A stretch of DNA of 64,000 nt from Zygnema cylindricum (taxonomy: Eukaryota; Streptophyta; Zygnematophyceae; Zygnematales; Zygnemataceae): NCBI GenBank assembly GCA_037447655.1, contig JBBHKE010001645.1, positions 53,452-117,451 on the forward strand, given 5' to 3'. Below are positions 7,870-57,354 of this stretch, in pieces. The notes under the pieces were generated by a model. The model had not been told where the DNA came from. It made no database searches and was given only the letters and a program-made list of their open reading frames with translations. A program made the translations under genes and the position numbers. Each line of letters begins with the position of its first letter. The first letter of the stretch is position 1.

Positions 7870-8269
7870 ATAGATGATAACATCTATATTGATATATCGT
7901 GAAAATATATCGATTCTCGGTAAGCCAAAAACAGGGCATGTTGGATATCAGCACATGGCTATCAATACACAACATTAAAAATTTGGGCCTTCAATCCATT
8001 GGGCGGTCTCAATAAATGTACGAACACGCTTGATGGCAGTGATATCTTTCAAGATCCTTCATTAGATCGTGCAATTTACGTTTAGTTTTTAATGGTACCA
8101 CATAGGCTCCTCTTGCACGTTAAAAATCGTCAAAGTTTATTCTAAGCTTAAAATCTGAATGAAATATCTGTACGGGTGAACTAAATTTAAGACTTGTAAA
8201 AGCGTACAAAAATTTAAGATTTGTAAGTGCGTACTATATCATTGTAATAACTTTGTTTTAAGTGAGCTA

Positions 8270-8485
8270 CACCATGTACCTTTATTAGTGTTAATGTTTT
8301 TTTTGCCACATAAAAACATATTTTCTCCGTACACACTTGTCGGATTGTGGATCTGACGGTTGCGATTAGAAAGCAAGATTTTAGCTTCCGATTGGGGGTT
8401 TTAAATTGATATTGGACAAATATGTACGGAAAAAATATGTTTTATGTGTCTAAAAAATTATTAACACTTTTTGCGATACATGGTG
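8270..8485. repeat. fold-back element with ~60-bp inverted arms
   Basis: The left arm begins CACCATGTACC at 8270 and continues to about 8335. The right arm ends TACATGGTG at 8485 and starts near 8425. The arms share the block ACATAAAACATATTTTCTCCG, with a few mismatches, around a ~90-base loop. It is a MITE-like hairpin and lies directly beside MITE P copy 2. Confidence 0.7.
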
Positions 8486-8487
8486 AA

Positions 8488-8899
8488 TAGTTATGTATCG
8501 GGTAATTATTTTAAACCAAAATCGGATAACCAATATAATTGGTTATAGACCGGTGAGGGGTTTCGATATATAGCTTCGTAACCGACGAAAATTATCGGTT
8601 GCGGGAAATGGTCCATACGAAAAGTACGACAAGGTGGTACGCAAATAAAGTACGAAATGAGTACGTAGATATCGCTAAGCGCGGGGGGGGGGGGGGGGAT
8701 TAGGAAATTTTCCACAATCAATTCCATACCACAGTACAAAGTTATCATTGGCCTAATATTTATAGGTAATATCGCGACATATCGAAAAGTTATTGTAATA
8801 ATTTATATGTTGATATATAGAACCAATTTATATATTATCGTTAGGTAAAAAAAAAAAACTTATCGGTTATCAATAAATGGCTACCCGTAAACAACATTA
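8488..8899. mobile_element. MITE family P, copy 2, with a 16-nt G tract
   Basis: Bounded by TA at 8488 and 8898. The left end is TTATGTATCGGGTAAT and the right end CTACCCGTAAACAACAT. Inside are ATATCG words, several CGTAC/GTACG motifs, an uninterrupted run of 16 G (8683-8698) and CACAATCAATTCCATACC, which matches copy 1. No coding capacity. Confidence 0.6.
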
Positions 8900-9907
8900 G
8901 TTGCATTGTTTTAAAGCCCAAAATTTGTTCCAAGACGGTATGTAGACAACAAAGGGTGCGTAAAAAAATATCGTTAGTCAAAGATTTTCTACAGGCTTTA
9001 GGTGGAATTACCTCCACCTTGTAGGAAGACACATGGATTATACAAAGTGTAAGGTTTTCATCGCACGTTTACCATGGATATTGTATTCATTTTCCAAATG
9101 TACCAACTGTACACTTCGAGTTTGTGAAGACATTAGCGAAAAACTGGATGGTTTGAGTGATTTCGTTGCGGACGTGAAAGAGACAAAATCAGTTGTCAAG
9201 CTTTAAGCCATTACTCTTACAAAATCTTGGTAGATCTCTAGTAAACATGTTTTATGTAATGGTATGAAAATGTATAGTATAACCTCACTTTTTTGCTAAC
9301 GGAAGTCCACCTTTGTGACATTTCTTAGTTCTCACACACGAAAATGGAAGCCACATCAAACGAAACGTATCGGGCCAGTGAAGGCCACGTCGTCATCACA
9401 TCGTGATTCTCTTTCGCTCCTTGTGGTAATCTCAACCGTACACAAGAAAAAAATCGCGGAACCAAAATATTTCTTTGGTAAAAGAATTAAAGGCTACGTC
9501 AAACGTAGCCAATAAAAAAAGTTGGCCTTTGTTCTGCCTTTTTATTTTGGCTATAAAACCTTGTACAAACGTTGAGAAGTGTGCTTCTACCATCCGATGC
9601 TCTCGAGAAAAAGAATCTCACGGTTCAAAATATGCTTCTCGCGAAGCACGATGGCGGTGCAAGATGTGAATATCGTTTTTTTTGTGTCTCTCTTGAGACT
9701 AGCTCGCAACTTAGATAAAGTGAAAAATGAGAGTCGACTTGAACGTATCCTCGAGACGTTTGTATAACTAGAACTTACATATAGCTTGCTTTGTGGCAAA
9801 AATATCCTGTCGAGGTGCGGGCTCGCTAGCGCAACCCTTTAGCCATTACTGCGTAAAGTAAGATAAAGTACAGTAATAAGAGAAAAGGGTATAAAATAGC
9901 ACATTAT
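8900..9907. other. no recognisable feature
   Basis: Low-repeat sequence. The short open frames here (for example around 9315-9800, on both strands) overlap each other, resemble nothing I recognise and show no splice or promoter context. I see no gene. Confidence 0.4.
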
Positions 9908-26691: not shown

Positions 26692-27745
26692 TGTAACTCT
26701 AAGACCTCCATAAGTTCTCAGAGTGGACAGCTTCCAAGAAGCCTCTAATATAACCCTGACCCCTTTTTGTTTCAGCAAAAAAAACTGCCACCCTGGCAGA
26801 CAATAACTCTGACTACCTAAACCCGTGTAAAGGTAAGACTCCCTTGAGGTGATAGCAAAAAGAATCTCTGAATTTGCTCCCCTGAGTAGTAAGTTATGGA
26901 GGGTCAAAGTTGACCTTTTGTACAGAAGCTCTCTGGGAGAGAGGGTCCTATCTCCTAATTTTTCTAAGTCCTATCTCTCTCACAGACTCTATCTACTGAT
27001 GTACGGAACCAATCAGATAATAGTTCCGTTCATAAAAGTACAGCTGCCATTGTACTTTATAAACGAACACTGTACGACACGGCCTAAATGTCGACACGTG
27101 GTATGTCCGGATTCGCTCCCTTAATCCTCGGAGATGACACGATTCAATGTCATTCCGCCACGTGTCATCAGATGTGGCGATGACCAAAAACCGCCAAAAT
27201 CCTCTTCCGCGATCTCGGCGTTAATTCCGGCCGTCCGATTAAATTCACATTTAATTGTAGCCGTAATAAATATATGCGCGGTATTCGTTTCACTAAATAA
27301 ACAATGCGCGGTATTGGTTTCTTATTTGTACCGTAATCCGTACTTTAACATTACTGGATCAATGTGCCCCGTAAACAATTTTAGTTAAATGAACTATCCT
27401 ACTTATGAATGTTTTAATAATTATCAAACTATATAGTATGTAACACTAGCTATAGACCTAACGGCTAAGGCTACCGGCTACCGGCTGATTGCCGTCCGGC
27501 AGGTGCTACGATCAAATCCTGTGGCTTGCACATACATTTTAGTAAATAAACCACTAACTAATATATATTTCCCGTAAACCTCCAGATAGCCTAGGTAGCC
27601 ATGGCTATAGCTCCCTCTCCAATTTCTCAGTGACTGCGACAAGTTTGAGAGTTGGTGAGAGAAGTTAGAGGTAGACTGCCTTGGCTTCTTTCTATATTTC
27701 TATTTAGACCTAGAAAATACTTTAAATGGACCATTAATTTCTACA
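26692..27745 (-). repeat. solo LTR of copia family C (C3), 1054 bp, with target duplication
   Basis: Minus-strand TGTAGAAATTAATGG at 27745 to GAGTTACA at 26692. The flanking 5-mers are identical: AAATC at 26687-26691 and AAATC at 27746-27750. No internal sequence is present, so it is a recombination product of a full element. It carries the family's terminal 20 nt (ATGGAGGTCTTAGAGTTACA on the minus strand), a GATCAAATCC box near 27510 and many GTAC motifs. It interrupts the coding frame of the host copia element. Confidence 0.92.
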
Positions 27746-39576: not shown

Positions 39577-39699
39577 TTAGTCAACAGTGACAAAGACATA
39601 ATAATGATTACCCGCCTAATTCGCAGTTCCCGCAAAACCATAGTGCAAAGGGTTTAGGACGAGGGTCCCAAGAGGAGGGGAGGCAAGACTAATGCCAAA

Positions 39700-41123
39700 A
39701 GTGGTCTCATCGGTCATAGACCAGGACATGATTCCGAGAGGAGGACGAGAGGCTGTCGGAGGAACATGATGGTGGATCGAAGAAATAGGTGAGGTGGAAA
39801 GTAGGCTCGTCTTCCAATTCTTGGATGTGATAAGGAGCTACATTGATCTGATTTTCCTTGACTTTCCGACCGTCCTTTCTTTTCAGGGTTAAAACACCCT
39901 TATTGGAAAGCTCAACAACTTTCAAGATCACCCTTCCCACCGAAATATACAGTGTTCTTTTTTTTGTTGCATTCGATACACAAAATCCCCTGGCAGAAAT
40001 TGTTGTTACCGTGGGATAAAATTACCGCTCCCACGTAGCGAATACGAGAGTTGGTCTCGATGCTAAACTGCTTGTAAATTCCCAATGGCTAGAGGCATTT
40101 CTTGGTGAAATACCTTGGCCCTGTCGGCAATTAGTTTCTAAACCATTCCCCTACTATACATCTCCAGAAGGAACACCGCTTAGGCGTAGGCAACCCCGGG
40201 TAGGATTGGATGTCGTCCAAACAAAATGAAATATGGACTGTAGGAGTGAAAGGATGCTTGTCGGCTGATCCTGTACCCTATGCCAATCCAAGGCACCCTT
40301 GTATCTCACTCTCCTAAATCGTATTCCATAACATATTTGCGTAGTGACCGCTTCACTGTCTGTTCCCACCTTTTTGCCAAACCGTCGACTTGTGGGTGGT
40401 CTCGGCTGGTTAGTCGGTGGTCAATGAGGCACAATTCCAACAAGTTGGAGAATTCTCTTGCAAATTCGGAGCCCTTGTCAGTCAGAACTTCAGCTGGGGC
40501 CCCAAATTGGGACAACACTCTCTACAAGAATGCGTCCGCAATCACTTTGGACTCCTTCCACGGTAAGACCACCAATTCAATCCACTTAGAAAAATACTAT
40601 ATCATTACCAATACAAAGCGGTTCCCTCGTCTGCTAGTGGGGAGAGGACCCAGCAGATCTAGAGACCATCGCTAAAACATTCCGCGGATGTGAAGGGAAT
40701 GAAGCTGGGCACCTCCCTTTTTGTTGAAAGCTGCTTTGACACGGTCATTCGAAAAGCTCGTTTGCACAATCCGGTTGACTTCAGTTTGCAACCAGTGACA
40801 CCAATACGATACTGTGACCAAGGAGGTGGTTTGTTTTTACCCAAAATGGCCACATGTTGGTGGAGGCCAAAAATAACAGTCTCCCTATGGGCCGGGGGAG
40901 GAACCACTTTCTTCGTACCGTCTGCCCATTTCCAGATTAAAATGCCTCTCTCCCATTTGTACGCCCCCATTCGAGCTTGAACCTGGGATAATTTTACTCT
41001 ACACAGATGGGAAAGAGGAGACCCTTGTTGGATAGATTGAAGTGCATCGGGGTCATTCCAAATAACTTTCCGCCCAGCTCCTATTGGCGCATGCGCCTCC
41101 ACGTCTACAGAGAAAATTGACAA
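39700..41123 (-). pseudogene. gypsy integrase (copy 1), broken
   Basis: The zinc-binding part (near 40870-40760) is altered: HQHVAILGKNKPPP where the family has an HLGHFG-type block. The core has QFGAPAEVLTDKGSEF (40515-40468; D of the catalytic triad) and CLIDHRLTSRDHPQVDGL, with the Glu region PQVDGLAKRWEQTVKR. The C-terminal block VGRVILKVVELSNKG, then KENQINVAPYH, lies at 39940-39820. Frameshifts separate the parts. Function in the family: joining of element DNA to the host chromosome. Confidence 0.85.
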
Positions 41124-41174
41124 TCTCCCCCCAGATTGAGGAAGACAAATAAAGGCAGAGGAAGCTTGAATGAA

Positions 41175-42605
41175 TCACCAACTGATTACGGGATCCTCAT
41201 CGTGATGGGCCCCGATGGAATCCCTAGTGGAAGGGTCAGGATTTCTGCTAAGTCCGTCGCCATTCCCAAGGATTTCCCCGGCCAAGTGGATTACGTCGGT
41301 TTCATGTTCCTGCAGTATTAATACCCATCTGGCAAGCTTTCCAGATAGCTTCACGTTCTCTTTAAACCACATGAGAGGTTGGTGATCTGTAATCAGAGGG
41401 AAATGAACTCTGTACACATATGGTGTGAAGTGTTGGATGGCCGAAACAGCCACCAGTAATTCCCCGTGGTAGCTGTTGTAATTCCCTTTCGCTCAATTGT
41501 TACTTCTACTGGCGTAAGCTACCACATATTCAACCCATGCATCATCCAGTTGAGCTAAAACATCTCTCAATCCAAACTGGCTCCAATCTTTATAAAGGAG
41601 GAACGACCACTGATGATCTCGCATCCAGAGCAATAGGTGTTACTTAAGGGAATCCTTCAGAAACTGGAAGGAAATCTGTTGCTCCTCCGTCCAATACCAC
41701 TCTTAGTCCTTCCGCAACAACTAGTTCAAAGGCTGAGCGTGACCGCTAAATTCAGGATTAAATCTCCGATAGTAGTTAGCCAAGCCTAAAAACGTGCAGA
41801 GTGCAGAGACGTCTTGAGTAGGGGGAAGGGCATCAAGGGCTGCCACCTTGACCATATGGGGACCCACTATCCCGGGTGTTACTTCATGTCCCACGTAAAT
41901 AATTTTTTGCACCCCAAAAATTCCCTTACCCACGTGATATTTCAAGCCCGGTGCTTGGAGAGCTCGGAGTACAATCTGTAGGTGCTCTAAATGTTCCTCG
42001 AAGGTCTTCGAGAAGATAATAACATCGTCGATGTAGCATCGTGCACAGTCAATTCCCAAGAGAGCTTTGTCCATGGCACGTTGGAATTTGGCTTGTGCAT
42101 TCTTTAGCCCTAATGGCTTGTAGAGCCATTTATACAACCTGGACCATGACCAAAATGCTATCATTTCTTGGTACTTTGGCTCGATTGCGTTCTGGTGGAA
42201 CCCATTGTTCATGTCTAAGGTGGAATAAATGGTGGCCCAAGCGAGCGAGTCGTAAATCTCTTCTGGGGTAGGCATTGGGTATCAGTCAGGTACGGTTGCC
42301 GTGTTAAGCATCTGGTAGTCTCCACACATTCGAAAGTCTACCGTTTTCCCGGACGAGTCCTTCTTTGGAGGGAGAACAGTTGGGGACGCAAACCCATGGA
42401 GTAGAGTACTTTCCTGCACCAATCTTGCTTCCACCATGGTTTGTACTTTTGCCGTGATGAATTCCTTTTCCTTGAAGCTGAGTGGGTACTGCTTTTGCCA
42501 AACATTAGCCGTCTCGTCTATAAAATTGATCCGAAAAGGGGTCCCTTTGTAGATGCCAACGTCGGTGTCTAACAAAGAGAACACCTTTTTGTTCTTCTCC
42601 AACAA
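41175..42605 (-). pseudogene. gypsy reverse transcriptase and RNase H (copy 1), broken
   Basis: RT begins VFSLLDTDVGIYKGTPFRIN (42585-42526). It includes TVLPPKKDSSGKTVDFRMCG near 42370, YSTLDMNNGFHQNAIEPKY near 42210 and an intact active site RCYIDDVIIFSKT near 42025. The connection and RNase H follow, with FLGLANYYRRFNPEFSGHA (41790-41735) and the late block HFPLITDHQPLMWFKENVK (41400-41345). The frame changes near 42290 and between 41720 and 41453. It would copy the element RNA into DNA. Confidence 0.88.
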
Positions 42606-42789
42606 GTTGGAGAGCTGGGCCTTTTGCTGAGGGTCTAATTGTACCCCTAAGGACTAATCCATCTTCCCACTTTTCACCGTTGCCCAAGCCTCTAGGCCTC
42701 AACCCTAGTCGGAGATGTGAAATTCCAACCCTACTTATGGGTCTACTTCCCCTCCTCCTGTTAGAATGTTGCTGCTAACAACTTCGGCT

Positions 42790-43365
42790 AAGTTGTCGCC
42801 TCCCGAGCCTCCGCTCCCCCCCATTGAGGAGTCCTTTGATTTGGGTGAAATGCTGGGACTGGAAAATTTTGATGATAAAATCTGTCTCCTTGCCTCCCTC
42901 CCCCCTCAAGCTGCAAGTTGACTTGTACTTCTAACATCCGTGGAGCTTGAAGGTAGCTAGCCCTTGATTGAAGAGACTGTAAGATAGAAAAGGCAAGATA
43001 ATGTTTTATCACCGAAGTGATTGCATTGAGATCCATGCTCTGTCAAAGTAGGCTGCACCTATTGAGGTCTGAAATACCTAGTGCTGCCGTGGTGTCAGAT
43101 TGTAATCCAATTGCTTCTTCTCCTTCTTCCACCGTTGGTGTTGTCCAAACTCCATTTTTGATATCACACATTAATACGGCCGCTCCATTCCGATACGCAT
43201 GGCAGTTGGGGAAGGAAACCAAGGTTGGTAGAGCTCGTCATGGTGGCCTTTGTTTGTTGCACGGGAACAACGGAGGATGATCAGCCTTGGAAATTGGAAT
43301 GGCCATCCGCCCTGGCCCTAGTATTTGTTGTAGAGTAATCTGGGGAACTGTTTTGTGGTTTTGTA
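42790..43365 (-). pseudogene. C-terminal part of a cytosine-5 DNA methyltransferase in gypsy 1
   Basis: Minus-strand pieces match the better copy at 52450-52930 in order. They are QQILGPGRMAIPISKAD near 43300, then FPNCHAYRNGA, VWTTPTVEEGEEAIGLQS (motif IX region) and RCSLLxQSMDLNAITSVIK (x is a stop; motif X region, near 43070-43010), then LAFSILQSL and YLQAPRMLEVQ. In the family motif X helps bind S-adenosylmethionine. The N-terminal motifs I-VIII are absent because the copia insertion and deletion removed them. Frame changes occur near 43150 and 43240. Confidence 0.7.
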
Positions 43366-44862
43366 AGAGTTGGTTTAGCCATCAATGAAGAGATGGCCTC
43401 AATTATGGCAACTCATACTTAGGAGCTGGTTGACTGTCCACCTAATCAAAAACCAATCGGTTGTAAATGGGTTTTCAAATTTAAACTGAACCCGAATAAC
43501 ACCATTGAGTGCTACAAAGCCCGATTAGTGGCAAAAGGATTTACACAGAAAGAAGGAATTTACTACGAGGAAACCTTTGCCCCGGTCTTCAGATTTCTCT
43601 CTGTCCGCATACTTCTCAGTTTAGCAGCAGCGAAAGACATGGAGGTGCTTTAGATGGACATGAAGATAGCCTTTTTGCATGTAGAATTGGAAGAGGAGAT
43701 TTTCATGCGACAACCCAAAGGATTTGTGGAGGAAGGAGAGGAGAGTAATGTTTGCCGGCTGATTAAATCTCTTTATGGTTTGAAACAGGCGCCTCAACAA
43801 TAGAATAAGAAGCTTGATGAGTTTCTTACCGGTTTGGGATATATCCTTATCAGCTCAGATCACTCAATCTATGTTTTTGAATATGAGGAAGGTGTTATAA
43901 TTTATTGCAATTTATGTTGATGATTTGCTTGTTTTAAGTAAATCAATGGAAAAAATCAATAAACTGAAAACCGATCTTAAGGGGAGATTTGAAATGAAGG
44001 ATATGGGGAAAAAACGATTATAAGATTGATGCAAAAGGAAACAATAGGGAACATGCTTGAAAAATTTCAAATGGATAAAGCTAGTAGTTTTACAACTCCA
44101 ATGGAGTTAAACAAGGGAAGTGAGAGGAGTGAGGAAGAAAGTGTCATATTCTTAGACTAGGAATTAAGTCTTGAACAACAAAAGTTCATACAGACTATTC
44201 CTTAAAGGCAAGTAGTCGAAAGCCTAAACTATTTTATGAATTCTACCCGGCCGGATTTAGCTGCAGCTATAGGAGTGCTGAGTAGAAGTTTAAATGCTCC
44301 CACAAAAAAGGTTTGGGAGGCAACTAAGAGAGTCCTTAGATATTTGATAGGAACTAGGGATCTTTAGTTGCATTTGGGTGGGGAGAATATTGACATCACT
44401 ACTAGGAGTGATGCCTGTTATGGTGATGCTCCAATGAGGAGATGTACTTCGATATACGTATTATATGTGGGTGATGGGGCTTGCTTTTAGAGTAGCAAAC
44501 AGCAAAAGGTTATAGCTTAGTCCACCATGGAGGTTGAGTATATGTCCTCTTGCTCTGCTGTAAATGAATTGATGTGGGTCAAGTCTTTTCTTGGTTAGCT
44601 TGGTCATCTTAAGAGTGGTGTGCAAATATTTTTTTGTGATAATGAAGCAGCGATCGCTATTTCTGCCAATCCTGAACATCATTTTAAAGCCAAACATATG
44701 GACATTAGACTCAGCATTGTTAAAGAGAAAGTAGAAAACAAAATAATCAGTTTAGAGTTCTGACCAGATAGCAAGATGGTAGCTGATATGATGACCAAAC
44801 ATGTACCTTCCCCTAATCTAATTTTATGCAGGAAAAAGTGTGGTTTGAAATTAAAGAGTGAC
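43366..44862 (+). pseudogene. copia reverse transcriptase and RNase H, broken
   Basis: Reads [72 protein letters not shown] and RLIKSLYGLKQAPQQ, with in-frame stops at 43801 and elsewhere. The active-site region is frame-shifted near 43915, where YVDDLLV is still readable in the next frame. RNase H near 44395-44700 includes TRSDACYGDAPMRR, QSKQQKVIAQSTMEVEYMSS-like sequence and FCDNEAAIAISANPEHHF. The copy is about 1.5 kb of a roughly 4 kb polyprotein. Confidence 0.88.
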
Positions 44863-44878
44863 TAGAAAATAAGGGGAG

Positions 44879-45929
44879 TGTAGAAATTGATGGTTCTTTT
44901 AGTATTTTATAGGTTTAAAATAAAGTGCAGAAAAAGGAGTTGAGGCAATTTATCTCTAACTTCTCTCTCCAACTCCCACACTTGTAGCAATCATTGAGAA
45001 GTTGGAGAGGAAGCTAGTGCCATGGTTTCCTATGCTATCCAGAGATTGACGGGGTAGTAAAGTAGTTGATTTACTAATAGGAAAGTTGTCGCATACAGGA
45101 TTTGATCCTAGTACCTACGGATAGGTAATGCTGCTGGTAGCCGGTAGCCTCATCAATTAGTGTAGGATTATTGGTACACGATATAGGGTTTATTAAATAT
45201 ATAAATGTTAACATACAGGCTAATTCATTTAACAAAAACTATATACGCAATACATGGAGTCAGTTATTAAAAGTTACGGATTACGAGTACGAAGAATAAA
45301 TAAGTACCGCGCATTTGTTTCGATAGCGAAACAAATACATCGCAAATATTTATGACGTCAATGATTGAAATCGACATTTAATCGGACGGCCGAAAAGAAT
45401 GCCACGATCGCGGAATAATATTTTAGCGATTTATGGTCGCCGCCACATCGGATGACACGTGACACCACGACATTGGATTTCGGCATCTCTAAGGATTACA
45501 GAAACGAATCCAAAAAAGACACGTGTCTACATTTTGGTCATGTTTTACAATGTTCGTACATAAAGTACACCGGAAGTTGTACCTTTCTCTACTGTACAGT
45601 AACATGATTTGTGCCGTACGTTAGTAGATAGAGTTTTAGAGAGAGATAGGACTTAGAGAAATTTGGTGGATAGGACCCTCTCTCCCAGAAAGCTTTTGTA
45701 CAAAAGGTCAAATTTAACCCTCCATAACTTACTGCTTAGGGGAGCAAATTCAAAGATTCCTTTTGCTATCGACTCACGAGATTCTTCCTTTCACAAGGGT
45801 GAAGGCGGTCAGAGTTTTTATTTTTTAGGGTGGCAATTATTCGTGCTGAAAGACAAAGGGGTTAGGGTTATCCTAGAGGCTTCGTGTGAGCTGCCTACTT
45901 TGAGGTCCTATGGAGATCTCACAGTTACA
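44879..45929 (+). repeat. copia 3' LTR, family C (C4), 1051 bp
   Basis: TGTAGAAATTGATGG after AAGGGGAG, ending CAGTTACA at 45929. It is a close relative of the solo LTR at 26692-27745. It carries a GGATTTGATCC box near 45101. The last 20 nt (45910-45929) are ATGGAGATCTCACAGTTACA, the conserved in-phase gag start. The right flank continues directly into gypsy gag. Confidence 0.88.
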
Positions 45930-48420
45930 TATTGCATCATCTCCTTCAGGACCCCATTCTTTTAGAAATATTACCCTTCGTTGTGACCTATGAAACCACA
46001 AGCCTCAAACTTGGAGCCCTCGGCGGTTTATTTGCCCCTCAATTCATTGGAGATTTGCGCATCATCTTATTTTGGAAGTTTGATTGGTCGCAACTAGGCT
46101 TGTGACATTTTTGCAGTCTAGAACCGGGGAGTCAGATGGTAATTGTCTTTGTTCACTGGTGGTTTGTCTTCCAATTATCCTCTTTGTTTCCTTTCGTGTT
46201 GTTTTTTGGTCCTTTAACCTCTCTCCTTTTCCCAATTCTTTGGCTTGAGAGCCAATTCTAGTTTAAGCTTCCAGGGGCAGCGCTTCTATCCATGACCTGT
46301 TTGTTGAAAGTTAAAATAATTGTCCAGGAAGACACCGTCATCGACCCTTATGGCGGGTAAAGATGCGCTATCCACGACCTGTTTTCCCTTAAGCTTCCTC
46401 AAAGCTATGAGTTATGTCGACTCCTCATTTTCAAGAGGCATTTCTCCGGAAAATCCTGTAAAGCTTCCTCTGGTTTTGCCGTTTAATGTTTCTCTTGGGC
46501 ATCTTTATGAACAAAATAGTCGTAGAGCTTCATTGCGGCCAGCGAGTTTTCTTTAGCCAACTAATTGATGTCCTGGATAGCCTGTCCGGCAATCCAATTA
46601 TTGAGGGAAGTCTGCTCTGTGGGTTTGAACGAGTTTCAGACCGCGATAAAGTATTTGAATGCCATAGCTGGGAGATCAATGGTTGATAGTTTTGTCTTTT
46701 GATAGAGGCTCGAAAATCTGTTGAAAAGAGTCTGGGGAGTTTCACTCTTCTGGTACAAAATTCCGTAAATTTCTTAATAGCCGATTCATTCCTTTCAGTG
46801 TAAAGGAGCCTCCAGGTGTTCAAAAGAGTGGTACAGGGTGTAGGATCTGCAACCATCCTGGTGGCTGCTCTAGTTGCCTGGGTTGCCTAAAGCTTGTTGA
46901 CATAGGTTTGACCTTGCACCTAAAGTTTCATGTTATATGTGAAGGCGGCAATGACATGAGCGGCTGCAACTGCAGCTTAGTCTGTTCTGCTTGCAAGGCT
47001 GCCTCATCAAGGATAGCGTCTGAAATTTTAATGTTAGGAGCCATCACCAGAGGTTATCGCTCTTTATTTTCTCCTAAAGTGCCCCGACGAGATAATTTAC
47101 CATCATTTGGAATAAGGTAGATTTGAAGTCATCTGGAATTGCTCCCCCCCTATACTTTTTTATGTCAGATTCTTTGAAAGATTTCCACAACAATACGAAA
47201 TCTAAAAAAGCAATCCCAAAATTGTCCCCTGTAAAAATCTTTACGTCACCCATTTTCTCCCCCTCGGCAAGGTTGGTGAACTGGGGCAAAGAAGGTCAGG
47301 CGGGACTGACAAATTGAACTAGTGAAATGACCCTTGGATCTGCATCTCCGAGATCCGAACCGCCTTCTCCTCTTCTAGGACAAGCGGGTGTAACTTCTGT
47401 TAACGTTCCCCCCACTGAGGATGGTCTTGTATTTAAAGGAGTTAGATTCCTGGCTCCTTTAAATCTAAGAGCGTATTGTTCCTCCCTTAGAACTATCACC
47501 ACTAATGGGATATGGAGCCGAGGTCTGTCTAAAGTTTGTTGAACTGCGGTGGCGGAGACGGAGACTGCTTAGGGCCCTGTAGGAAAATGCGTATGTCTCC
47601 TTGTTTGCCACCTAGATGCCTTGGGAAGTGGAATTCCTTTTAGACGAAGGAAACGTCCATGAGGTGGATAGTGAGTGCAAGAGGTATTTGTGCGGTGGCG
47701 GCAAATCGAGGACCTGATCGATGGCGCGAGAAGCGGGTGGAGAAAGCGTCGGGGGCACCTGGGTGGATAGGGGGTGAGGAGAGGAGAAGAAAGCAAAGGG
47801 TGTTGAAGATGTGGTGAAGGAGGTGTTGGCAGATCCCGTGCGGTGGTACTCGGCGGGCAACCATCAGCAGAAAGGTAGGCTCCCCACGAGGCATAGAAGC
47901 AGACGGCAATTAAAGACCCAAACCTTTCAGTCCATGGTTTCCTCCCCTTCCCGTTAAAAAGGAGATTCCAGTCTCAATCCCTGTGAAGTCCTTGGAGCCT
48001 GAGTCGCAGAGTTGCCTGACCCCAGGGTGGTCTTCCTGCAGAGGGACCTGTCCTCTGAGGAGGAGCTATCTGTCCACTAAGAATTCCTCCTGCACTCCGT
48101 ATAGGCTCTCGAATGAGAAGCAGTTCCTGTTCAAGTGCCTCCCTCCATTCCCTTTGAAGAGCCTCCCTGTCTATCTTGAAAGTTCTAGCCCCCGCCATAG
48201 CCTCACTCTCCGATTGCAGAATGTCAAAAAGTTTGTGGGTGTAGCTCACCACACCCAAAAGATTCGCAATCCCTAAACCTAGTACCTCGGGGTCGGTGGG
48301 TCTCAAACGCCTTAACATGTCGGAAGGTTGAACAACCGGTGATAGGGGAAGTAGGGAGGTCAGAGAGATTGAGGCTGAAGGGAAGAACGGCTCCTTGTCA
48401 AGCGTGCTAGGAAACCGTTG
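45930..48420 (-). pseudogene. gypsy gag (copy 1), broken
   Basis: Minus-strand pieces in order start with an N-terminal block near 48350-47974 (PTDPEVLGLGIANLLGVVSY and TFKIDREALQREWREALEQE). Next comes a Pro/Ser-rich stretch (47909-47569), then NLAEGEKMGDVKIFTGDNFG with FKESDIKKYRGGAIPDDFKS (47289-47074). The block shared with gypsy 2 (46856-46760) reads TPCTTLLNTWRLLYTERNES, and a zinc-knuckle remnant ACGFIGHNEG near 45985 has lost its first Cys. Gag would form the particle and bind RNA. The start codon is not certain. The Pro-rich part may be spacer. Confidence 0.7.
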
Positions 48421-49378: not shown

Positions 49379-50535
49379 CTAGTCAACAACAAAGTTTTGG
49401 GCCAAATTGATCTGATTCTCTTTAATTTTGCGGCCATCCTTCCCTTCCAAAGTAGGAACCCCTTTGTTTGAAACCTCCACTACCTTCAAAATTACTCGTC
49501 CAACCGAAATGTCCAAAGTATCCTTCTTTTGTTGCATGCAATACACAAAATTCGCGGGCACGAATCGTCGTTGGCGAGGGACATAATTGCCGCTCCGACG
49601 TTGGGAATACCAAAGCTGATCCTTATGCTGAGCAGCCTGTAAATTTCCCATAGCCAGAGATAATTCCTGATGAAATACCTTGGCCTTGTCGGCAATCAGA
49701 TTTTCCATAGTCCCCCGGTTGTCCATCTCAAGAAGTACAACCGCTTGAGCCAATGCAACCCCACGTAAGATGGGATGTCGGCCAAAGAGAATGAAATAAG
49801 GGCTGTAGGAGTGGAGAGATGCTTGCCAGCTGAACTTGTATCCCATGGCAATCCAAGGCACCTGTCTGTTCCATTCCCCGAAATCCTCTTCCACTGCATA
49901 TTTACGTAGTGACCGCTTCACTGTCTGTACGCACCTCTTGGCCAAGCTGTTGGCTTGGGGGTGGTCTCGGCTGATCAGCCAGTGGTCTAAAAGGCACTGC
50001 TCTAGTAGGTTAGAGAATTCACCGGCGAACTCGGACCCCTGATTCGTTAGCACCTCAGCTGGTGCTCCGAATTGAGATAACACTCTATGGAAGAATGCAT
50101 CTGCGATTGCTTTGGACTCTTTCTAGGGAAGTACCACCAATTCGATCAATTTAGAGAAGTGCTGAATCATGACCAAGACAAAACGGTTTCCCTTCCGACT
50201 AGTGGGAAGTTGTCCGAGCATATCCAGTGACCATCTGTAAAACATCCCTCGGATGGGGAGGGAGTGAAGTTCCGTACCACCCTTTTTGTCAAAAACAACT
50301 TTAACCTGGTCACAGGAAGGACACGTCTACACCACACGATTGACCTGAGCCCGCAACCCATGCCACGAGATCGACCCTGTGACCAGTGAGGTGGTCGTTT
50401 CTGCCCAAAATGCCCGCATTGCTGGTGAAGACGAAAAATGAGTTTTTCTCCATCTACCGTAGGAGGAACCACTTTCCTCGTCCCATCGGCCCATTTCCGA
50501 AGAAAAATGCCTCTGTCACATTTGTACGCCGCCAT
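49379..50535 (-). pseudogene. gypsy integrase (copy 2)
   Basis: The zinc-binding part at 50460-50330 (IFRLHQQCGHFGQKRPPHW) is frame-shifted afterwards. A long open stretch of 234 codons (50083-49379) holds QFGAPAEVLTNQGSEFAGEF (catalytic Asp region altered to TNQ), SRDHPQANSLAKRCVQTVKR (Glu position changed to Lys), a conserved IAMGYKF region, SPYFILFGRHP and the C-terminal block SVGRVILKVVEVSNKG to KENQINLAQ. Expected catalytic D and E are substituted, so this integrase looks inactive even where open. Confidence 0.88.
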
Positions 50536-50600
50536 TTGGTTCTAAACACAAACAACTGAATTCCGGCAAGGTGAGGAAGAGAAGAATCCTTCTGGATAGA

Positions 50601-52150
50601 CTAGAGGGAATTTGCATCATTCCAAATATCTTTGCGGCCGACTCCAATAGGAGCATGCCCCTCTTCATCTGCAGCAAACGTTGACAGTTCTCCTTCGGCC
50701 CGAGGCTGCCAAATTAAGAAAGAGGAAGCCTGGATAAGTCCTAGGCTGAGTTCCGGGTCTTCGTCGTGCCGCGCCCTGGTAGAGTCTTTGGTGGAAGGGT
50801 CTGGATTCGAGCTGAGTCCGACGACATTCCCACGAATCTCCCTGGCTCGATGGATGATGTTGAAATCATATTCCTGCAAGATGAGATCCCATCTGGCCAG
50901 CTTGCCAGTCAACTTACTGTTCTCCATGATCCATTTGAGGTGCTGGTAATCCGTGATAAGAGTGAAGTGTACTCTATAAAGTGTACCGCGATGAGTAAAT
51001 CCCCATAGTAACTCTTCTGCTAGTAATCCCCTCAAATCTATTATTACTCCCACTTGTGTAGGCCACTACATACTTAGCCCTTGCATCGTCCAATTGCGCC
51101 AAAACTCCTCCCAATCCGAACGTGCAACAATCTGTATAAAGGAGAAAAGGTCGCTGGTGATCGAGCATCCGGAGCACATGATGTTGCTTAAAGGAATCTT
51201 TCAGGATTTAGAAAGCAATCTGCTGTTCTTCCTTCCACTACCATTCCTGGTCCTTTTGCAATAATAGATTCAATGGCTAAGCGTGGCTACTGAATTCAGG
51301 AATAAACCTTCGGTGACAATTTGCAAGGCCTAGGAAAGTACGAAGAGCAGAAATGTCTTGCGGGGGAGGAGAGCGTCAAGGGCCCCTACCTTGACCATGT
51401 GGAGACCCATTGTCTCGGGAGTCACCTCATGACCCAAATATATTATTTTCTGCACCCCAAAGATGCCTTTCCCCATGGTGACACTTCAAGCCTGCTGCTT
51501 GGAGTGCGCGGAGAACAATCTGTATATGCTCCAAGTGTTCTTCGAATGTCTTGGAGAAGATGATCACATCGTTGATGTAGCATCAAGCAAAGTCAATTCC
51601 CCAGATAGCCTCGCCCATGGCACGTTGGAATTTGGCAAGTGCATTTTTGAGGCAAAAGGGCATGTAAAGCCATTCATACAGCCTGGATCCTACCCAAAAA
51701 GCGGTCCTCTTTCGGTGCTTCGGCTCCATTGCAATCTGGTGAAATTCATTCTTCATACCCAACCTGGAGTTGATGCTGGCCCTAGCAAGAGAGTCAAAGA
51801 TCTCTTTCGGGGTAGGCATAGGATAATGGTCAAAGAGAGTTGTCGCGTTGAGCATCCGGTAGTCCCCACACATTCGGAAATCTACAATTTTTCCGGAGGA
51901 GTCTTTCTTTGGCGGGAGCACGGTTGGTGAGGCAAACCCATGATGCCATGTACTCTCCTGCAGCGGCCTTGTGTCCACCAAAATTTGCACCTCTTTGGTT
52001 ATGAACTCCTTCTCCTTGAAACTAAGAGGATACTGTTTCTGCCAAACAGTTGTCGTCTCGTCGATCAGGTATATACGGAAAGGGGTACCCTTAAAGATTC
52101 CTACATCTGTGTCAGACCAAGCGAACACCTAATCGTTCTCTCTAACAGCT
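50601..52150 (-). pseudogene. gypsy reverse transcriptase and RNase H (copy 2), broken
   Basis: A long RT frame at 52128-51583 includes DTDVGIFKGTPFRIYLID, TVLPPKKDSSGKIVDFRMCG and YPMPTPKEIFDSLARASI. After a stop at 51580 the active site reads CYINDVIIFSKT, where the family has YIDDV, so one catalytic Asp is Asn. RNase H begins RPFLLYTDCCTFGLGGVLAQ (51150-51090), followed by FTLITDYQHLKWIMENSKLT near 50950. It corresponds to 41175-42605 in gypsy 1. Confidence 0.88.
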
Positions 52151-52449
52151 TGGAGAGCCGGGCCTTCTGCTTTGGGTCTAGCTTTTCCCCTTGAGTCCAG
52201 TCCATCTTCTTGGGTTCCAGTGCCACACATGCTTCCGGTGGCCGACCCCATAGGGAGATGTCAAATTTCTACTCTACTTGTGGGTCTGTCCCTTTCTCGG
52301 TTGTTAAAACGCTGCTGCTACCAACTTCCCTTGAACTGCCCTGATCTGAGCCTTCACTCCCCCCCACTGAGGAAACTCCAGGGTTTAGTTTGCTATCTGA
52401 ATAAAATTGGGTGAAATTTTCCCTTCTTTCCTCTCTCCCCCCCTCAAGC

Positions 52450-53640
52450 TACACAGTAGCTTGCATGGCCAACAACTGTGGAACTTGAAGGTAAGCTCCC
52501 CGTGACTTTGGAGACAGGAGGCTAGAGAATGCCAAAGAATGTTGCAGCACCCAAGAGATTGCTTTCAAATCTATACTTTGCCCGATTAAACTGCACCTTT
52601 TTGAGGGTGAGACCCCTGGTGCTGCTGTGGTTGCTTGTCCAAATCCCATTGCTTGTTGCCAATCCTCAATGCTTGGTGTTGTCCAAGTATTTGCTATACT
52701 GTCAAATATCATCCCTGGTGTGCCTCATCGATAAGCATGCCTGTAAGAAAAAGATACAAGGCTTGGTAGGGCCTTCCATGGATATCCGAGTTTATTGCAA
52801 CAGAAAAAGGGTGCTCGATCGGCTTTGGTCACTGGAGTGGCCATGCGCCCTGGTCCGAGAATCTGTTGAACTATGATGTTGGTATCCGGAACCTGTGTTT
52901 TCAACAAATTTAGGAGGATTTGAAGAGGAACCAAGTTGGTCCAATAAGCTCGAACTTTGTGGGCTTTTGATCCAACTTAAGCTTCATCAAAAAATATTGG
53001 AGTCCCCAGAACCTTGGTCACTTGGTTCCAGCTGTTGACCATTTGTTTTCTTTTATCATCTGTGGGGTGAACATTTTCCAAGACGTACTCCACTGGAGTG
53101 TCTTGATGTTCTTGTATCTTTGTTATTAGTCGCGTCATCTGGAAGAATGTTAAGTTGTGGACATCTTGGTGTCACCTGCCCTGTCTTGCTAACGAATACC
53201 CCTGGCACGGCCATCCATCGATTACCATAACCACCCTTCCAAGCTTTTCTAAATGTGATTTGGTAATATTATCCACATTTTGGGGAAGCGTGCGGTGAGA
53301 GATAGACATGGTGGACACTGAGAGTTGTTGTGGGTAAAGTTGGTGCAGCTGTTGCAGTCGATACTCACTAACTACACGAGGGTCCGAATCAATCTCGATT
53401 ACTGAGTACTCTTCTACTTGGTATCTTGCTTTTAGGATGGCTTCAGATCGGAGCTAATGCCGGAAAATAGTGATAGAATCCTGAGTCCCGAGGGAGGGAC
53501 CTCTAGTGACACCACCTGTCGATTGAAGTCTTCCCCTTTGTTAGGAGCCGTTGGAAGTTCTGACCAGGGAACCTTTGCTGTTCCGGATAATATTTCAGCA
53601 AAGCTTCTGTCCACTTCCCGCCAAAGTGTGGCCATCTATC
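52450..53640 (-). pseudogene. cytosine-5 DNA methyltransferase domain (DNMT3-like) inside gypsy pol, broken
   Basis: After a ~50-residue linker, minus-strand pieces give the C5-methyltransferase motifs in canonical order. Motif I is LRILSLFSGISSDL (53482-53441), followed by a frameshift. A Rossmann segment YSVIEIDSDPRVVSEYRL comes next. Motif IV is VVMVIDGWPCQGYSLA with the catalytic PCQ cysteine (about 53199-53230). Motif VI is VEYVLENVHPTDDKR (53060-53090) and motif VIII is GSKAHKVRAYWTNL near 52940-52975. Motif IX is WTTPSIEDWQQAMGFGQ and motif X is GQSIDLKAISWVLQH (52540-52590). The order I to X is not the DRM-type rearranged order, and the TKSHLEKLG spacing before PCQ resembles DNMT3 proteins. 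Known role: transfer of methyl from S-adenosylmethionine to cytosine C5. One frameshift and at least four stops are present. Confidence 0.8.
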
Positions 53641-54170
53641 TTAATCAGTTTTGGTACTCCCTTTCCCACTGCTTGGAAATAGGGAAATGCTAGATGGAAT
53701 CGGCGATATCCGTGGAGTAGTCGTACAGCACCGAAGGGGTGGAGGTAGAGTATACGCGATAGCATCCAGACATTGGAATAATTGTTTTTCCTCGGTTCCA
53801 TAAATCCAAGGGGACCACCACTTTTGTGCCCTTCGATCCTCCCGGTCTGAGACTGTAATTTGTTCCTTCCATACGCTCAATTCCATTTTCAATCTTTTCC
53901 ACATTGCTATTCCCAGCAAAATTTCGAATTGTTTACCTTCCACCACTAGGAAGAGGAGATGAATTTGAACGTGCTAGCGTGTGTCATCTTCAAATTCGAT
54001 TTCCATGGCTTTTATGATACCATATAGTGGTTGGCTCCCACTGCTGACCGTGCTCAGGCATATGTCGTTGGGATTGATTTTGGGTCGGATTCCCTCCGGC
54101 ATTTGTTGTAATGTTGAGGTGGTGATGAGATTAGGGAGAGCTTCGGTATCCACCACTGCATCCTGCTACC
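53641..54170 (-). pseudogene. gypsy aspartic protease (copy 2)
   Basis: A frame near 54150 starts VDTEALPNLITTSTLQQM. Family enzymes have DTG at this site, so Gly is Glu here. A second half (53946-53820) reads VEGKQFEILLGIAMWKRLKM and then QITVSDREDRRAQKW, matching the later strand of a retroviral-type protease. Between them a frame change occurs near 53960. It would release the gag and pol products. The methyltransferase follows directly without its own start signal, which suggests one polyprotein. Confidence 0.75.
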
Positions 54171-54899
54171 CGCCTTATCCATTAAGTTTAAAATTTCCCG
54201 TTCTGTTTAGAATAAGAGCAACTGACAGGGCCTTATAATCTCTATCCGCCATAGAAGTTTTTGGTTCCGCCGACATGAAGACTATCTTGGGTGGTTTTGC
54301 CAACACGACCCTTTTCCTCCTGGTGTGAATCTCTTCACTCGATGCCTAAATGAGGGTTTTTTTGGGCAGATTATTGGCGGAAGCTTACGTCTTGACGTGC
54401 GCCAGGGCGTAGGGCATCAAGTGTCGTACTAGCATGAATGCCGGTTTAGAGGAAGGAGGGTGAGTTTTGAGCGATGAAATTGGTAAGCACTCGCCTCCGA
54501 TTTCTCCTGTCTCCCCCCTCCTTCTTCCTCACTTTCTGCGTCAAAATTTGCTGTTGGAGGTGTCACTAGCGGATCCGTGGGTGGTCTCTCGGCCAAGTAT
54601 CTTTCGAACCATTCCTGATCTGTTTCAGCGGTTACTGTATTTTGTTTTAGCTATGATTTCACGTAGTATTCGAAACCGAGAGGAAGTTTCTTGTGAGTTG
54701 GGGGAGGCGGATGAGTCGGTTTCAAGCCCAGCCCAATGTCATTGTTCAGAAAGACTGCTCGCGTTGTAAAGGATAAGGGGCCTTTTTGCAACTGTGGTCC
54801 TTTTGTTCCATCGGTTGTTTGTCCTTTCTCTCGGAGGACGTTGTAGAGCGGAGCTGCCTGCGACAGTCCCCTACAGCAATGTTCTAGGCCTTGGACAAA

Positions 54900-56290
54900 A
54901 ATGTCCGGGCATGATGATCCTTCGGCGGCTCCATATCCCAACCCATCAGTTCATAATCATCTTCACTCACCGTAGTCTGCTGCTCCAGCTGCGCTAGCCT
55001 TTGTTACAATTCTTGTTTTTGTTTTTGCACTTTTTGAGCCAGTGTAAGAGAATGAGGTGTGCGGGCAGGTGATCCCAAGCGAGAGCAGCCAACTTTGCTG
55101 TTAAGGGGGCCAATTGAGTACTCTGTTGCTGAATGAGATGTTTCGGAGTCAGTCTCTTGGGTCCTGATTCATCTGGAGATCTACGTCCCCAGGGATACAA
55201 AAGTTGCAATTGAAGAGGATTAACGGATGTTTCCCCTTCTCCTATGAACATGGCATATTGCATCATCTCCTTTGGGACTCCATTTTTCGGGAAACATTAT
55301 TCTTCTTTATGGCCCATGAACCCACAGGCCTGACATTTTGACCCCTCATTAGTATACTTTCCCCTTAGCTCATTTAAGATCTAAGCATCATCAAATTTAG
55401 AAAGTCTAATTTGTCTCAACTGGGATTGAGACATCTTAGCGGTTTCAAACCGTGGAGTAGGTTTATAGGTGCATTTGTTGATTGGCGTGCGGTCTCCTCC
55501 TCCTCCTACTCCCTGCTTGCGTTGCTGCTGCATTTGGGTACGTTATGCATGTTCTTTCTCAAACTCCTTTTGCTTGATAGCAAGTTATGGGTTGAGCTTC
55601 CTTAGACATCGTTTCCACCCAAGACCGGTTTGGTTCCATTTCAAGCAATTGTAAAATTAAACTCTTTCGTTCGCGCCCATTACAGGTTTGGGTTTGCTGC
55701 CAGATTCTTGTTTCCCTTTAAGGTTTTGCAAAGCTTGAAGTTTGGTCTATTCCTCTTGGCTGATAAATGATCCCCATTAAAAACCTGCAAAGTTGGCTCT
55801 CGATTTCCCGGTAATAGCCTTTTCCTTCGCTTCGCTATGCACAAAATGATCATACAACTTCATGGCGCCCAAAGAGCTTTCCTGAGCATTGGGATTCTGG
55901 TTGTGAATGGCTTGACTGGCACTCCAATTGTTGAGAGCTGCCGGTCCTGATGGCCCGAACAAATTTTGGACAGCGACATAATACTTAGTGGCCATAGGCG
56001 GTGTATCAATAGTGGACAATTTGGTCTTCTGGAAGAGGCTGGAGAGGCGATTAAACAGCGTTTGAGGGGTTTGATTTTTCAAACAGCGGAAGTCTGTAAA
56101 CTCTTTAATTGCAGTTTCTTTCCTTTTTGTGTAAAGGAGTCTCCATGCGTCCAAAAAGAGTGTTGTAGGGATTCGGGTTGGAGACCATCCGGGTGGCTCC
56201 TCAGCGGCCTATACGGCCTGAAGGTGGTTGAGATAGGCCTTGCCTAGGGCCTAGAGTTTCATGTCCATGGTGAAAGTGGGGGGTAAAAGG
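54900..56290 (-). pseudogene. gypsy gag (copy 2), broken
   Basis: The N-terminal segment near 56265-56190 reads GKAYLNHLQAV. A long frame 56154-55777 reads AWRLLYTKRKETAIKEFTDF, TPQTLFNRLSSLFQKTKLST, ATKYYVAVQNLFGPSG and GAMKLYDHFVHSEAKEK. The nucleocapsid knuckle near 55340 is CQACGFMGHKE (first Cys pair and His present). A Gln/Leu-rich tail is at 55266-54994. The same blocks occur in gypsy 1 at 46860-46530. The interval 54899-54171 holds the poorly conserved end of gag and the approach to protease. Confidence 0.8.
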
Positions 56291-56308
56291 AGCTGCGCCA
56301 GCAGCAAC

Positions 56309-57354
56309 TGTAGAAACTAATGGTTTTAAAGTATTTTCTAGGTATGAATAGAAATAAAGAAGCCGAGGCAGTCTACCTCTAACTTCTCTCTCCAACTCTC
56401 AAACTTGTCGCAGTCACTGAGAAATTGGAGAGGAAGCTAGAGCCATGGCTACCTAGGCTATCCTGAGGTTTACGGGAAATTTATACTAGTTAAGGGATTA
56501 TTTACTAAAAGGTATATGCCGGCCACAGGATTTGATCCTGGTACCTGCCGGCCGACAAACGAGAAATAGCCAGTAGCCTTAGCCGTTAAGTCTAGCTGTA
56601 GTGTTACGTATTATATAGTACAATATTTATTTAAACATTAATACGTAGGTTAAATCATTTAACTGTAACTGTTTACGGTATTCAGAGATCTGGTAATGTA
56701 AAAGTATGGAATACGGTACATGCACAAAATCAATACCGCGCATTTATTTCGTAAGTGAAACGAATACCACGCATGTATTTATTACGGCTACGATTAAATT
56801 AGATTCAAATCGGACGACAGAATTAGCGCCGAGATCGCGGAAGAAGATTTCGGCGGTTTGTGGCCATCGCCACATCGGATGACGCGTGGCAAAATTACAT
56901 TAGATCGTGGAATCTCCAAAGATTATGGCACCGAATCCGGATATGACATGTGTCGACATTTGGGACATGTCGTACAATGTTCGTACATAAAGTACACCGG
57001 CAGCTGTACTTTTGCGTACGGAACTGTATTCTGATTGGTTCCGTATATGAGTAGATAGAGTTTGTGAGAGAGATAGGACTTAGAAAAATTAGGAGATAGG
57101 ACCCTCTCTCCCAGAGAGCTTCTGTACAAAATGTCAACTTTGACCCTCCATAACTTACTACTCAGGGGAGCAAATTCAGAGATTCTTTTTGCTATCGACT
57201 CAAGGGAGTCTTGTCTTCATAGGGGTGAAGTTGGTCAGAGTTTTTGTCTGCGAGGGTGGCAGTTATTTTTGCTGAACATAAAGGGGTCAGGATTATCCTA
57301 GAGGCTTCTTGGAAGCTGTCCACTCTGAGGACTTATGGAGGTCTCAGAGTTTCA
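56309..57354 (+). repeat. copia LTR, family C (C5), 1046 bp
   Basis: TGTAGAAACTAATGG to GAGTTTCA. It is close in length and sequence to 44879-45929 and 26692-27745. It has a GGATTTGATCC box at 56528-56538. The last 20 nt (57335-57354) are ATGGAGGTCTCAGAGTTTCA, the conserved gag start. It lies inside gypsy 2 near the gag start. The left flank GCAAC and the right neighbour (another LTR fragment) give no target duplication. Confidence 0.88.

Follow-up and report, generated by a model that had tools for sequence, protein, structure and literature searches.

A DNMT3-like cytosine methyltransferase within the Pol region of a multi-copy Ty3/gypsy family of Zygnema cylindricum

The stretch of Zygnema cylindricum contig JBBHKE010001645.1 (assembly GCA_037447655.1) analysed here, 64,000 nt long and hereafter called the window (all coordinates are window positions unless a locus is named), contains a decayed Ty3/gypsy retrotransposon in which a DNMT3-like C5 cytosine methyltransferase domain (DNMT) lies between the protease (PR) and the reverse transcriptase (RT). 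Such an element had been proposed from a sequence-only reading of the window, and the proposal is now backed by a profile match, by sequence comparison, by the predicted structure of a relative and by sister copies in the same genome. The element is a multi-copy Ty3/gypsy family with a Pol-embedded methyltransferase and not a case of chance nesting, because a second window copy retains a portion of the domain at the same place and because the order PR-DNMT-RT is found in 18 of 20 long sister loci.

The domains of the first copy (copy 1), delimited by tblastn with domains taken from sister copies, follow one another on the minus strand in the order gag-PR-DNMT-RT-RNase H-integrase (INT), which is that of Ty3/gypsy elements:

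49399..56306, minus strand: Ty3/gypsy-DNMT element copy 1, family B1, decayed and truncated at both ends (alignment to sister loci and domain order)
55321..56277, minus strand: gag-like region (tblastn with sister gag)
53839..54258, minus strand: aspartic protease (tblastn with sister PR)
53690..53692, minus strand: in-frame TAG at the PR-DNMT junction, context TAG CAT TTC (junction alignment)
52431..53476, minus strand: DNMT3-like C5 cytosine methyltransferase domain, broken (motifs I, IV, VI, VIII and X, PF00145, and tblastn over 52431-53444)
51436..52032, minus strand: RT (tblastn)
51028..51252, minus strand: RNase H (tblastn)
49925..50410, minus strand: INT (tblastn)

Across 49399-56306 the best sister loci (L011, L012 and L023) are about 81% identical to copy 1. 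The sister protease open reading frame (ORF) matches the Pfam families Asp_protease_2 and gag-asp_proteas, both below cut-off. Copy 1 itself is dead: its frame changes past motif I, three stops interrupt the methyltransferase and both ends are truncated, with no flanking long terminal repeats (LTRs); tblastn with the sister domain found no PHD finger after its integrase. The interval first given for the methyltransferase, 52450..53640, was right to within about 200 bases, its end at 53640 reaching into the linker towards the protease.

Five motifs of C5 methyltransferases can be read in translation on the minus strand, in linear order and in two frames, with the sequences and the order originally described:

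53444..53476, minus strand: motif I, LSLFSGISSDL, frame 2
53193..53216, minus strand: motif IV, GWPCQGYS, including the catalytic Cys
53064..53087, minus strand: motif VI, YVLENVHP
52932..52973, minus strand: motif VIII, GSKAHKVRAYWTNL
52557..52583, minus strand: motif X, GQSIDLKAI

Motifs IV, VI, VIII and X share one frame with the three in-frame stops. The one-frame piece after motif I, with X at the stops, matches PF00145 at 29.4 bits (cut-off 22, E 7e-07), so that the profile match on which the first proposal depended exists; shorter pieces did not reach the cut-off (motifs II-IV alone, 13.6 bits) or gave no match to this profile (motif I alone, motif VIII alone), and three open sister frames scored 44.2-48.9 bits. 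The column of the catalytic Cys is invariant across 27 aligned domains, one of them bacterial.

We class the copy 1 domain as a DNMT3-like C5 methyltransferase, and not as DRM, because DNMT3A comes first among solved structures ranked by sequence (2e-14), because the predicted model of a relative, P0163, is closest in fold to DNMT3A/B/C and because the motif order is unrearranged, the last being the ground on which the domain had originally been called DNMT3-like. The fold was checked on P0163 rather than on the window copy, and the list of its matches held no DRM or CMT chains and hence does not discriminate against those. A DRM-type enzyme was ruled out by the linear motif order together with the weakness of the matches to chains named DRM2 (only 0.0025). 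The catalytic domains of DNMT3A and DNMT3B are thus the top matches in sequence and fold and share the linear order of motifs, whereas P0163 is only 22-28% identical to them in structural alignments, the element enzymes have a longer stretch between motifs I and IV, and DNMT3A has PCN where the element enzymes have GWPCQ or GWECQ.

The second gypsy copy in the window (copy 2, 39842-43330) is about 71% identical to copy 1 and retains the C-terminal part of the methyltransferase upstream of RT, the same place as in copy 1:

45995..46486, minus strand: gag piece, parted from the methyltransferase piece by a copia-like insertion (alignment and tblastn)
42899..43378, minus strand: C-terminal part of the methyltransferase (alignment and tblastn)
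41859..42488, minus strand: RT (tblastn)
41289..41708, minus strand: RNase H (tblastn)
40360..40854, minus strand: INT (tblastn)
39611..39727, minus strand: PHD finger downstream of the integrase (tblastn)

Copy 2 is split by a copia-like piece and an adjoining 1.05-kb repeat (43377-44886 and 44879-45929). Similar 1.05-kb repeats, 75-85% identical, lie at 56309-57354, abutting copy 1, and at 26692-27745; they also match several sister loci, within or beside gypsy-DNMT copies.

A PF00145 scan of the assembly (352,776,454 bases in 2689 contigs) gave 782 first-look candidates, 123 of which were scored, all 123 above the cut-off. The loci with matches that were read number 48 (L001-L048) and represent 43 of the 123 places, five pairs being the same place. 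Apart from L007, treated below, these places (42 in number) can be assigned together with the window to one of three families, with 16 places in A, 18 plus the window in B1 and 8 in B2, counts from which duplicates were removed by hand and which may still include haplotype duplicates among contigs. The 20 long loci are those read over 9.9 kb; their selection mostly favoured long open frames, so that they are no random sample. All 20 have gag and PR, 18 have RT and RNase H, 17 have INT and 15 have a PHD finger. One family A locus has everything from gag through PHD in a single frame of 2395 aa, and in two B1 loci the frame stays open from the methyltransferase through the PHD finger, over 1520 aa and 1525 aa. 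Other gypsy copies with the domain in the same place, the further expectation of the sequence-only reading, are therefore present in number, many of the copies read being decayed like the one in the window.

Direct repeats were seen at both edges of six of the 20 long loci, all of family A, with 87-100% identity (the loci are cut, and whole LTRs and the ends of family B lie beyond the stretches read); insertions therefore seem to range from recent to old. One family A copy, L014, has a 789-base inverted repeat (1-789 and 8145-8934 of that locus, 97.5% identical), which may have to do with the DIRS-like repeat arrangement described for KnitGypsy-Dnmt3, the gypsy-borne enzyme of Klebsormidium nitens discussed below.

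A chromomethylase (CMT) or MET1 type for the element domains was considered and rejected, since among the loci read L007 alone is of that kind. This locus has a chromomethylase-like frame of 100 aa (1498-1797 of the locus). Its top three hits, 9mvy, 7ubu and 4fsx, score about 3e-28, well ahead of the next one at 2e-12; all three carry the name DNA (cytosine-5)-methyltransferase 1, and 4fsx is maize ZMET2, a chromomethylase. L007 is probably an exon of a host gene, which suggests that the host has a plant-type methyltransferase of its own.

Selection was estimated as the ratio of nonsynonymous to synonymous substitution rates (dN/dS) among copies with the frame open over at least 90% of the domain, using pairs with dS above 0.05; the pairs are not independent, and most family A pairs were lost because they were either too similar or saturated. 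For the methyltransferase the median dN/dS was 0.254 in family B (19 of 21 pairs, 7 copies) and 0.204 in family A (3 of 21 pairs, 7 copies); for RT the medians were 0.108 in B (3 of 6 pairs, 4 copies) and 0.024 in A (7 of 36 pairs, 9 copies). On these values the methyltransferase looks like a protein that has been in use in the past. A rough survey of 87 proteins, some of them fragments, with loose motif patterns found motif I in 30, IV in 69, VI in 75, VIII in 76 and X in 23.

In families B1 and B2 the PR and methyltransferase frames are in one register and are parted by a single stop codon. The junction alignment comprised 27 family B rows (duplicates dropped), 26 of them aligned (L029 failed to align and L034 aligns poorly); the stop is TAG in 24 copies and TAA in two, and reads TAG CAA TTC in 21 of the 26. 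Close copies share this TAG by descent, and B1 and B2 representatives have only about 58% DNA identity here, yet their 11 bases TAGCAATTCCC are identical, which is the case for only 14 of 1203 aligned 11-base windows. No such stop occurs in the 2395-aa family A frame or in the relative P0002. The conserved TAG is probably a leaky stop. Some retroviruses make Gag-Pol by readthrough as a minor product, and readthrough of the TAG would likewise yield gag-PR as the major and methyltransferase-RT-INT as the minor product. As in the Type I signal of plant viruses (UAG CAR YYA, with 32% readthrough for tobacco mosaic virus in one assay; PMC2754532), the stop is a UAG followed by CAA UU between two in-register frames; unlike that signal, its sixth following base is C and not A, and it sits at the PR-DNMT junction of a retrotransposon, where readthrough is predicted from sequence. 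Readthrough candidates among rice gypsy elements are mentioned in the same paper (PMC2754532).

Folding of the RNA after the TAG, for the 10 of 13 intended loci that were matched by pattern, gave one short common stem in the alignment fold, and among single-sequence folds L024 and L038 alone stood out against a crude mononucleotide shuffle. The TAG might instead be the end of a gag-PR product, with a methyltransferase-Pol that is started independently, or be read as sense by the host, and this we hold to be possible if somewhat unlikely: no universal structure was seen in the downstream RNA, the hexamer falls short of the full CAR YYA and the related protein P0002 runs continuously from the protease side into DNMT, but PR and DNMT stay in register across the TAG in both B1 and B2, and TAG CAA TTC is kept where its surroundings are not.

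Downstream of the integrase, PF00628 identifies a PHD finger in family A (1.5e-09, above cut-off) and matches below cut-off in B1. The family A finger is nearest by sequence to those of PHF12, KDM5/Lid, BAZ2B, WSTF and PHF21A. Several of these read histone H3 unmethylated at K4, as does the ADD domain of DNMT3, which in animal DNMT3 adjoins the catalytic domain. Chromoviruses are gypsy elements with an integrase chromodomain; the ORFs of L009, L011 and L012 have none at E 0.01 and have a PHD finger instead. The element thus resembles chromoviruses in having a chromatin-reader module after the integrase, and differs from them in that the reader is a PHD finger and in the presence of a methyltransferase. 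One relative, P0032, is listed with a chromodomain (PF00385), a PHD finger and a methyltransferase. The PHD gene family of Zygnema cf. cylindricum SAG 698-1a is reported to be at least nine-fold larger than those of its sisters (PMC9915684), an expansion for which integrase-linked PHD fingers could account if the genome is the same.

Word-limited protein searches yielded 41 and 44 relatives, mostly unnamed, the named ones coming from Marchantia polymorpha, Closterium sp. NIES-53/54 and K. nitens. The search aimed at plant host DNMT3 returned 44 proteins, of which one is a bacterial enzyme and the rest are element-like, many being methyltransferase-only fragments. Two architectures are found. 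In type 1 the methyltransferase precedes RT (17 proteins that contain the two, three of them frames of the present genome); in the other it lies between RNase H and integrase (14 proteins). The K. nitens protein P0034, marked partial, has the order DNMT-RT-RNase H-INT. In three Marchantia proteins (P0003, P0011 and P0015), seen as proteins apart from their genomic surroundings, the methyltransferase is in the last part and no RT is in the same protein.

Trees were built for the 24 proteins with enough of both DNMT and RT, and the two architectures separate in the DNMT tree (99/98) as in the RT tree (96/91). Other groupings recur in both, namely family A with P0004, B1 near P0001/P0162 and P0002, and K. 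nitens with P0010, and P0034 is on the type 1 side in each, its position within type 1 differing. A DNMT tree of 79 rows, with a thin outgroup of a human DNMT3A fragment and the bacterial enzyme only, places Marchantia among the element proteins and the RNase H-INT type as one group (100/99), nested among the others if that outgroup is trusted. That the PR-RT placement is older than the RNase H-INT placement is weakly indicated, since the outgroup joins a long-branched row, P0041, so that the rooting is weak. The trees were confined to element-like proteins and, in the 79-row tree, this outgroup; host enzymes of the plant DNMT3 and DRM kinds, and RTs of gypsy elements that lack the domain, fell outside them. 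The DNMT and RT trees of the relatives agree in the main, with exceptions, and the simplest reading is a methyltransferase that was captured once, long ago, has remained with its element since and changed its place in Pol a single time. The capture looks old because related methyltransferases occur in proteins of Klebsormidium, Closterium and Marchantia. There may instead have been independent captures from related host DNMT3s, or horizontal transfer between algae and plants.

A gypsy-borne Dnmt3 as such is already known. KnitGypsy-Dnmt3 of K. nitens is an intronless gypsy Pol with a non-rearranged Dnmt3, reported to be under purifying selection; de Mendoza et al. 2018 (PMC5890265) took the K. 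nitens lineage to have acquired it independently. It resembles the present element in having Dnmt3 inside a gypsy Pol in the same order, with P0034 of type 1 in both trees, and differs in that its repeats are reported to be DIRS-like, family A here having direct edge repeats where these are visible. Capture by LTR retrotransposons in dinoflagellates as well as in a charophyte, mentioned in the sequence-only reading, holds for the K. nitens gypsy element (PMC5890265); the dinoflagellate carriers are of other kinds, SymbioDIRS-Dnmt3 and SymbioLINE-Dnmt of Symbiodinium belonging to DIRS and to long interspersed nuclear elements (LINE) and being reported as independent captures (PMC5890265). Those elements, like ours, are retrotransposons that captured a cytosine methyltransferase, but theirs are DIRS or LINE carriers, whereas ours is an LTR gypsy element. 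SymbioDIRS enzymes methylate CG de novo in yeast (PMC5890265), and a 2025 study restates that some DNMT3s are embedded in retrotransposons (PMC12344493). The terms PHD and readthrough do not occur in the main text of PMC5890265. In the literature searched, subscription papers and supplements aside, we found no report of such elements in Marchantia or Closterium, nor of a PHD finger together with a methyltransferase, of the RNase H-INT placement or of the conserved stop codon, a weak negative in each case. New as far as searched are therefore the PHD finger after the integrase, the conserved in-frame TAG, the RNase H-INT placement and the largely agreeing DNMT and RT trees; the integrase-linked PHD finger, the TAG and the second window copy also go beyond what had been read from the window sequence at first.

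With moderate confidence we favour, as the best explanation of the whole, a Pol-borne DNMT3 that methylates the element's own complementary DNA (cDNA) and a PHD finger that guides integration. The methyltransferase would form the leading part of the Pol product, made in families B1 and B2 only through low-level readthrough of a leaky UAG, and would stay with RT and integrase. It would methylate CG sites of freshly made double-stranded cDNA, either ahead of integration or during it, and the PHD finger would direct integration by reading histone H3. Methylated this early, new insertions could remain silent and be tolerated by the host, or could fit in with surroundings that are themselves methylated; self-methylation is what we infer the enzyme's function to be.

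A number of observations weigh against this explanation. The methyltransferase is under weaker constraint than RT, as far as few pairs can tell, and in motif IV the proline of the catalytic pair is changed, ECQ (GWECQ) replacing PCQ (GWPCQ), in family A and in 19 of the 87 proteins surveyed. KnitGypsy-Dnmt3 expressed in yeast gave no detectable methylation, a result called inconclusive by its authors (PMC5890265). The CAA TTC that follows the TAG fits five of the six bases of CAR YYA, so that the full Type I signal is not reached. The two trees place the K. nitens pair differently, with the B group by DNMT (96/91) but apart from every other type 1 row by RT (97/97), and the Closterium proteins P0022 and P0021 are sisters in the RT tree and not in the 24-row DNMT tree, although they do group in the 79-row DNMT tree (97/90). 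Decay of CG to TG/CA in the window copy, 35% versus 16% for GC to GT/AC, was rejected as proof of self-methylation, being unspecific: two unrelated repeat pairs in the window have the same lean (12% and 20-21% versus 7%), and the decay thus points to general host methylation and suggests that repeats of this genome are methylated.

The weak constraint, the ECQ variants and the yeast result would also suit a domain that is no longer a methyltransferase and has become a DNA- or RNA-binding part of Pol, which we judge distinctly unlikely in view of the invariant catalytic Cys in the 27 aligned domains and of the standard PCQ in the window copy's own family. It is unlikely, too, that the domain is kept for its effect on the host rather than on the element, silencing defence genes of the host or rival elements in trans. 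A low dN/dS is compatible with any useful activity, and accidental activity on host genomes was considered by de Mendoza et al. (PMC5890265). Against this reading, the methyltransferase is part of a Pol whose RT and integrase work on cDNA of the element itself, K. nitens reportedly has a methylome similar to those of land plants (PMC5890265), and nothing here points to action in trans. The decay of many copies, the window copy included, would be consistent with a passenger captured by a master copy and hitchhiking without benefit; this is very improbable given a dN/dS of about 0.2-0.25 among open-frame copies (few copies, and pairs that are not independent) and its retention among relatives in which about half of the domain's residues, or more, have changed. 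The idea of a host DNMT pseudogene, a contaminant or a chance nesting beside or inside a gypsy element has no observation in its favour and practically no probability left, being refuted by copy 2, by the 18 of 20 sister loci and by the single open frame with all domains.

Elsewhere in the window, Pfam matches mark a hAT transposase C-terminal dimerisation region (PF05699, 3759-4433, minus strand, 1.1e-06), a piece of a DDE_1 transposase (PF03184, 38024-38485, plus strand, 6.3e-07) and a Copia reverse transcriptase (PF07727, 29086-29502, plus strand, 5.7e-35), and tRNA and Rfam scans of the window were both empty. PPR motif matches occur in large clusters on contigs C185, C717 and C2152, C185 also having a frame of 2240 aa, and the arrangement resembles that of restorer-type PPR genes. 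A PPR protein (L049) had no close relative in a protein database search; among the 120 of 878 matches listed the highest identity was 34%, to a eukprot protein that is probably from Spirogloea.

It is paradoxical that elements which hosts silence should themselves carry a silencing enzyme, and in the literature searched the prior basis for this was one gypsy family in one alga and the LINE and DIRS elements of dinoflagellates (PMC5890265). A Pol-embedded methyltransferase with low dN/dS in many copies of another streptophyte genome, together with the Closterium and Marchantia relatives, suggests a single long-standing and successful strategy more than an oddity, and the PHD finger and the predicted leaky stop offer testable handles on targeting, dosage and timing. 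A more far-reaching view, which we offer tentatively and regard as rather unlikely, is that of an ancient gypsy lineage, predating the split of Klebsormidium from land plants, whose Pol carries the host's de novo silencing module split in two, with the catalytic domain of DNMT3 at one end and, at the opposite end, a PHD finger that reads H3, with the methyltransferase dose set by a leaky stop in one branch and the enzyme moved beside the integrase in another, and which marks itself silent at birth. If true, this would be a parasite that pre-silences itself so as to be tolerated.
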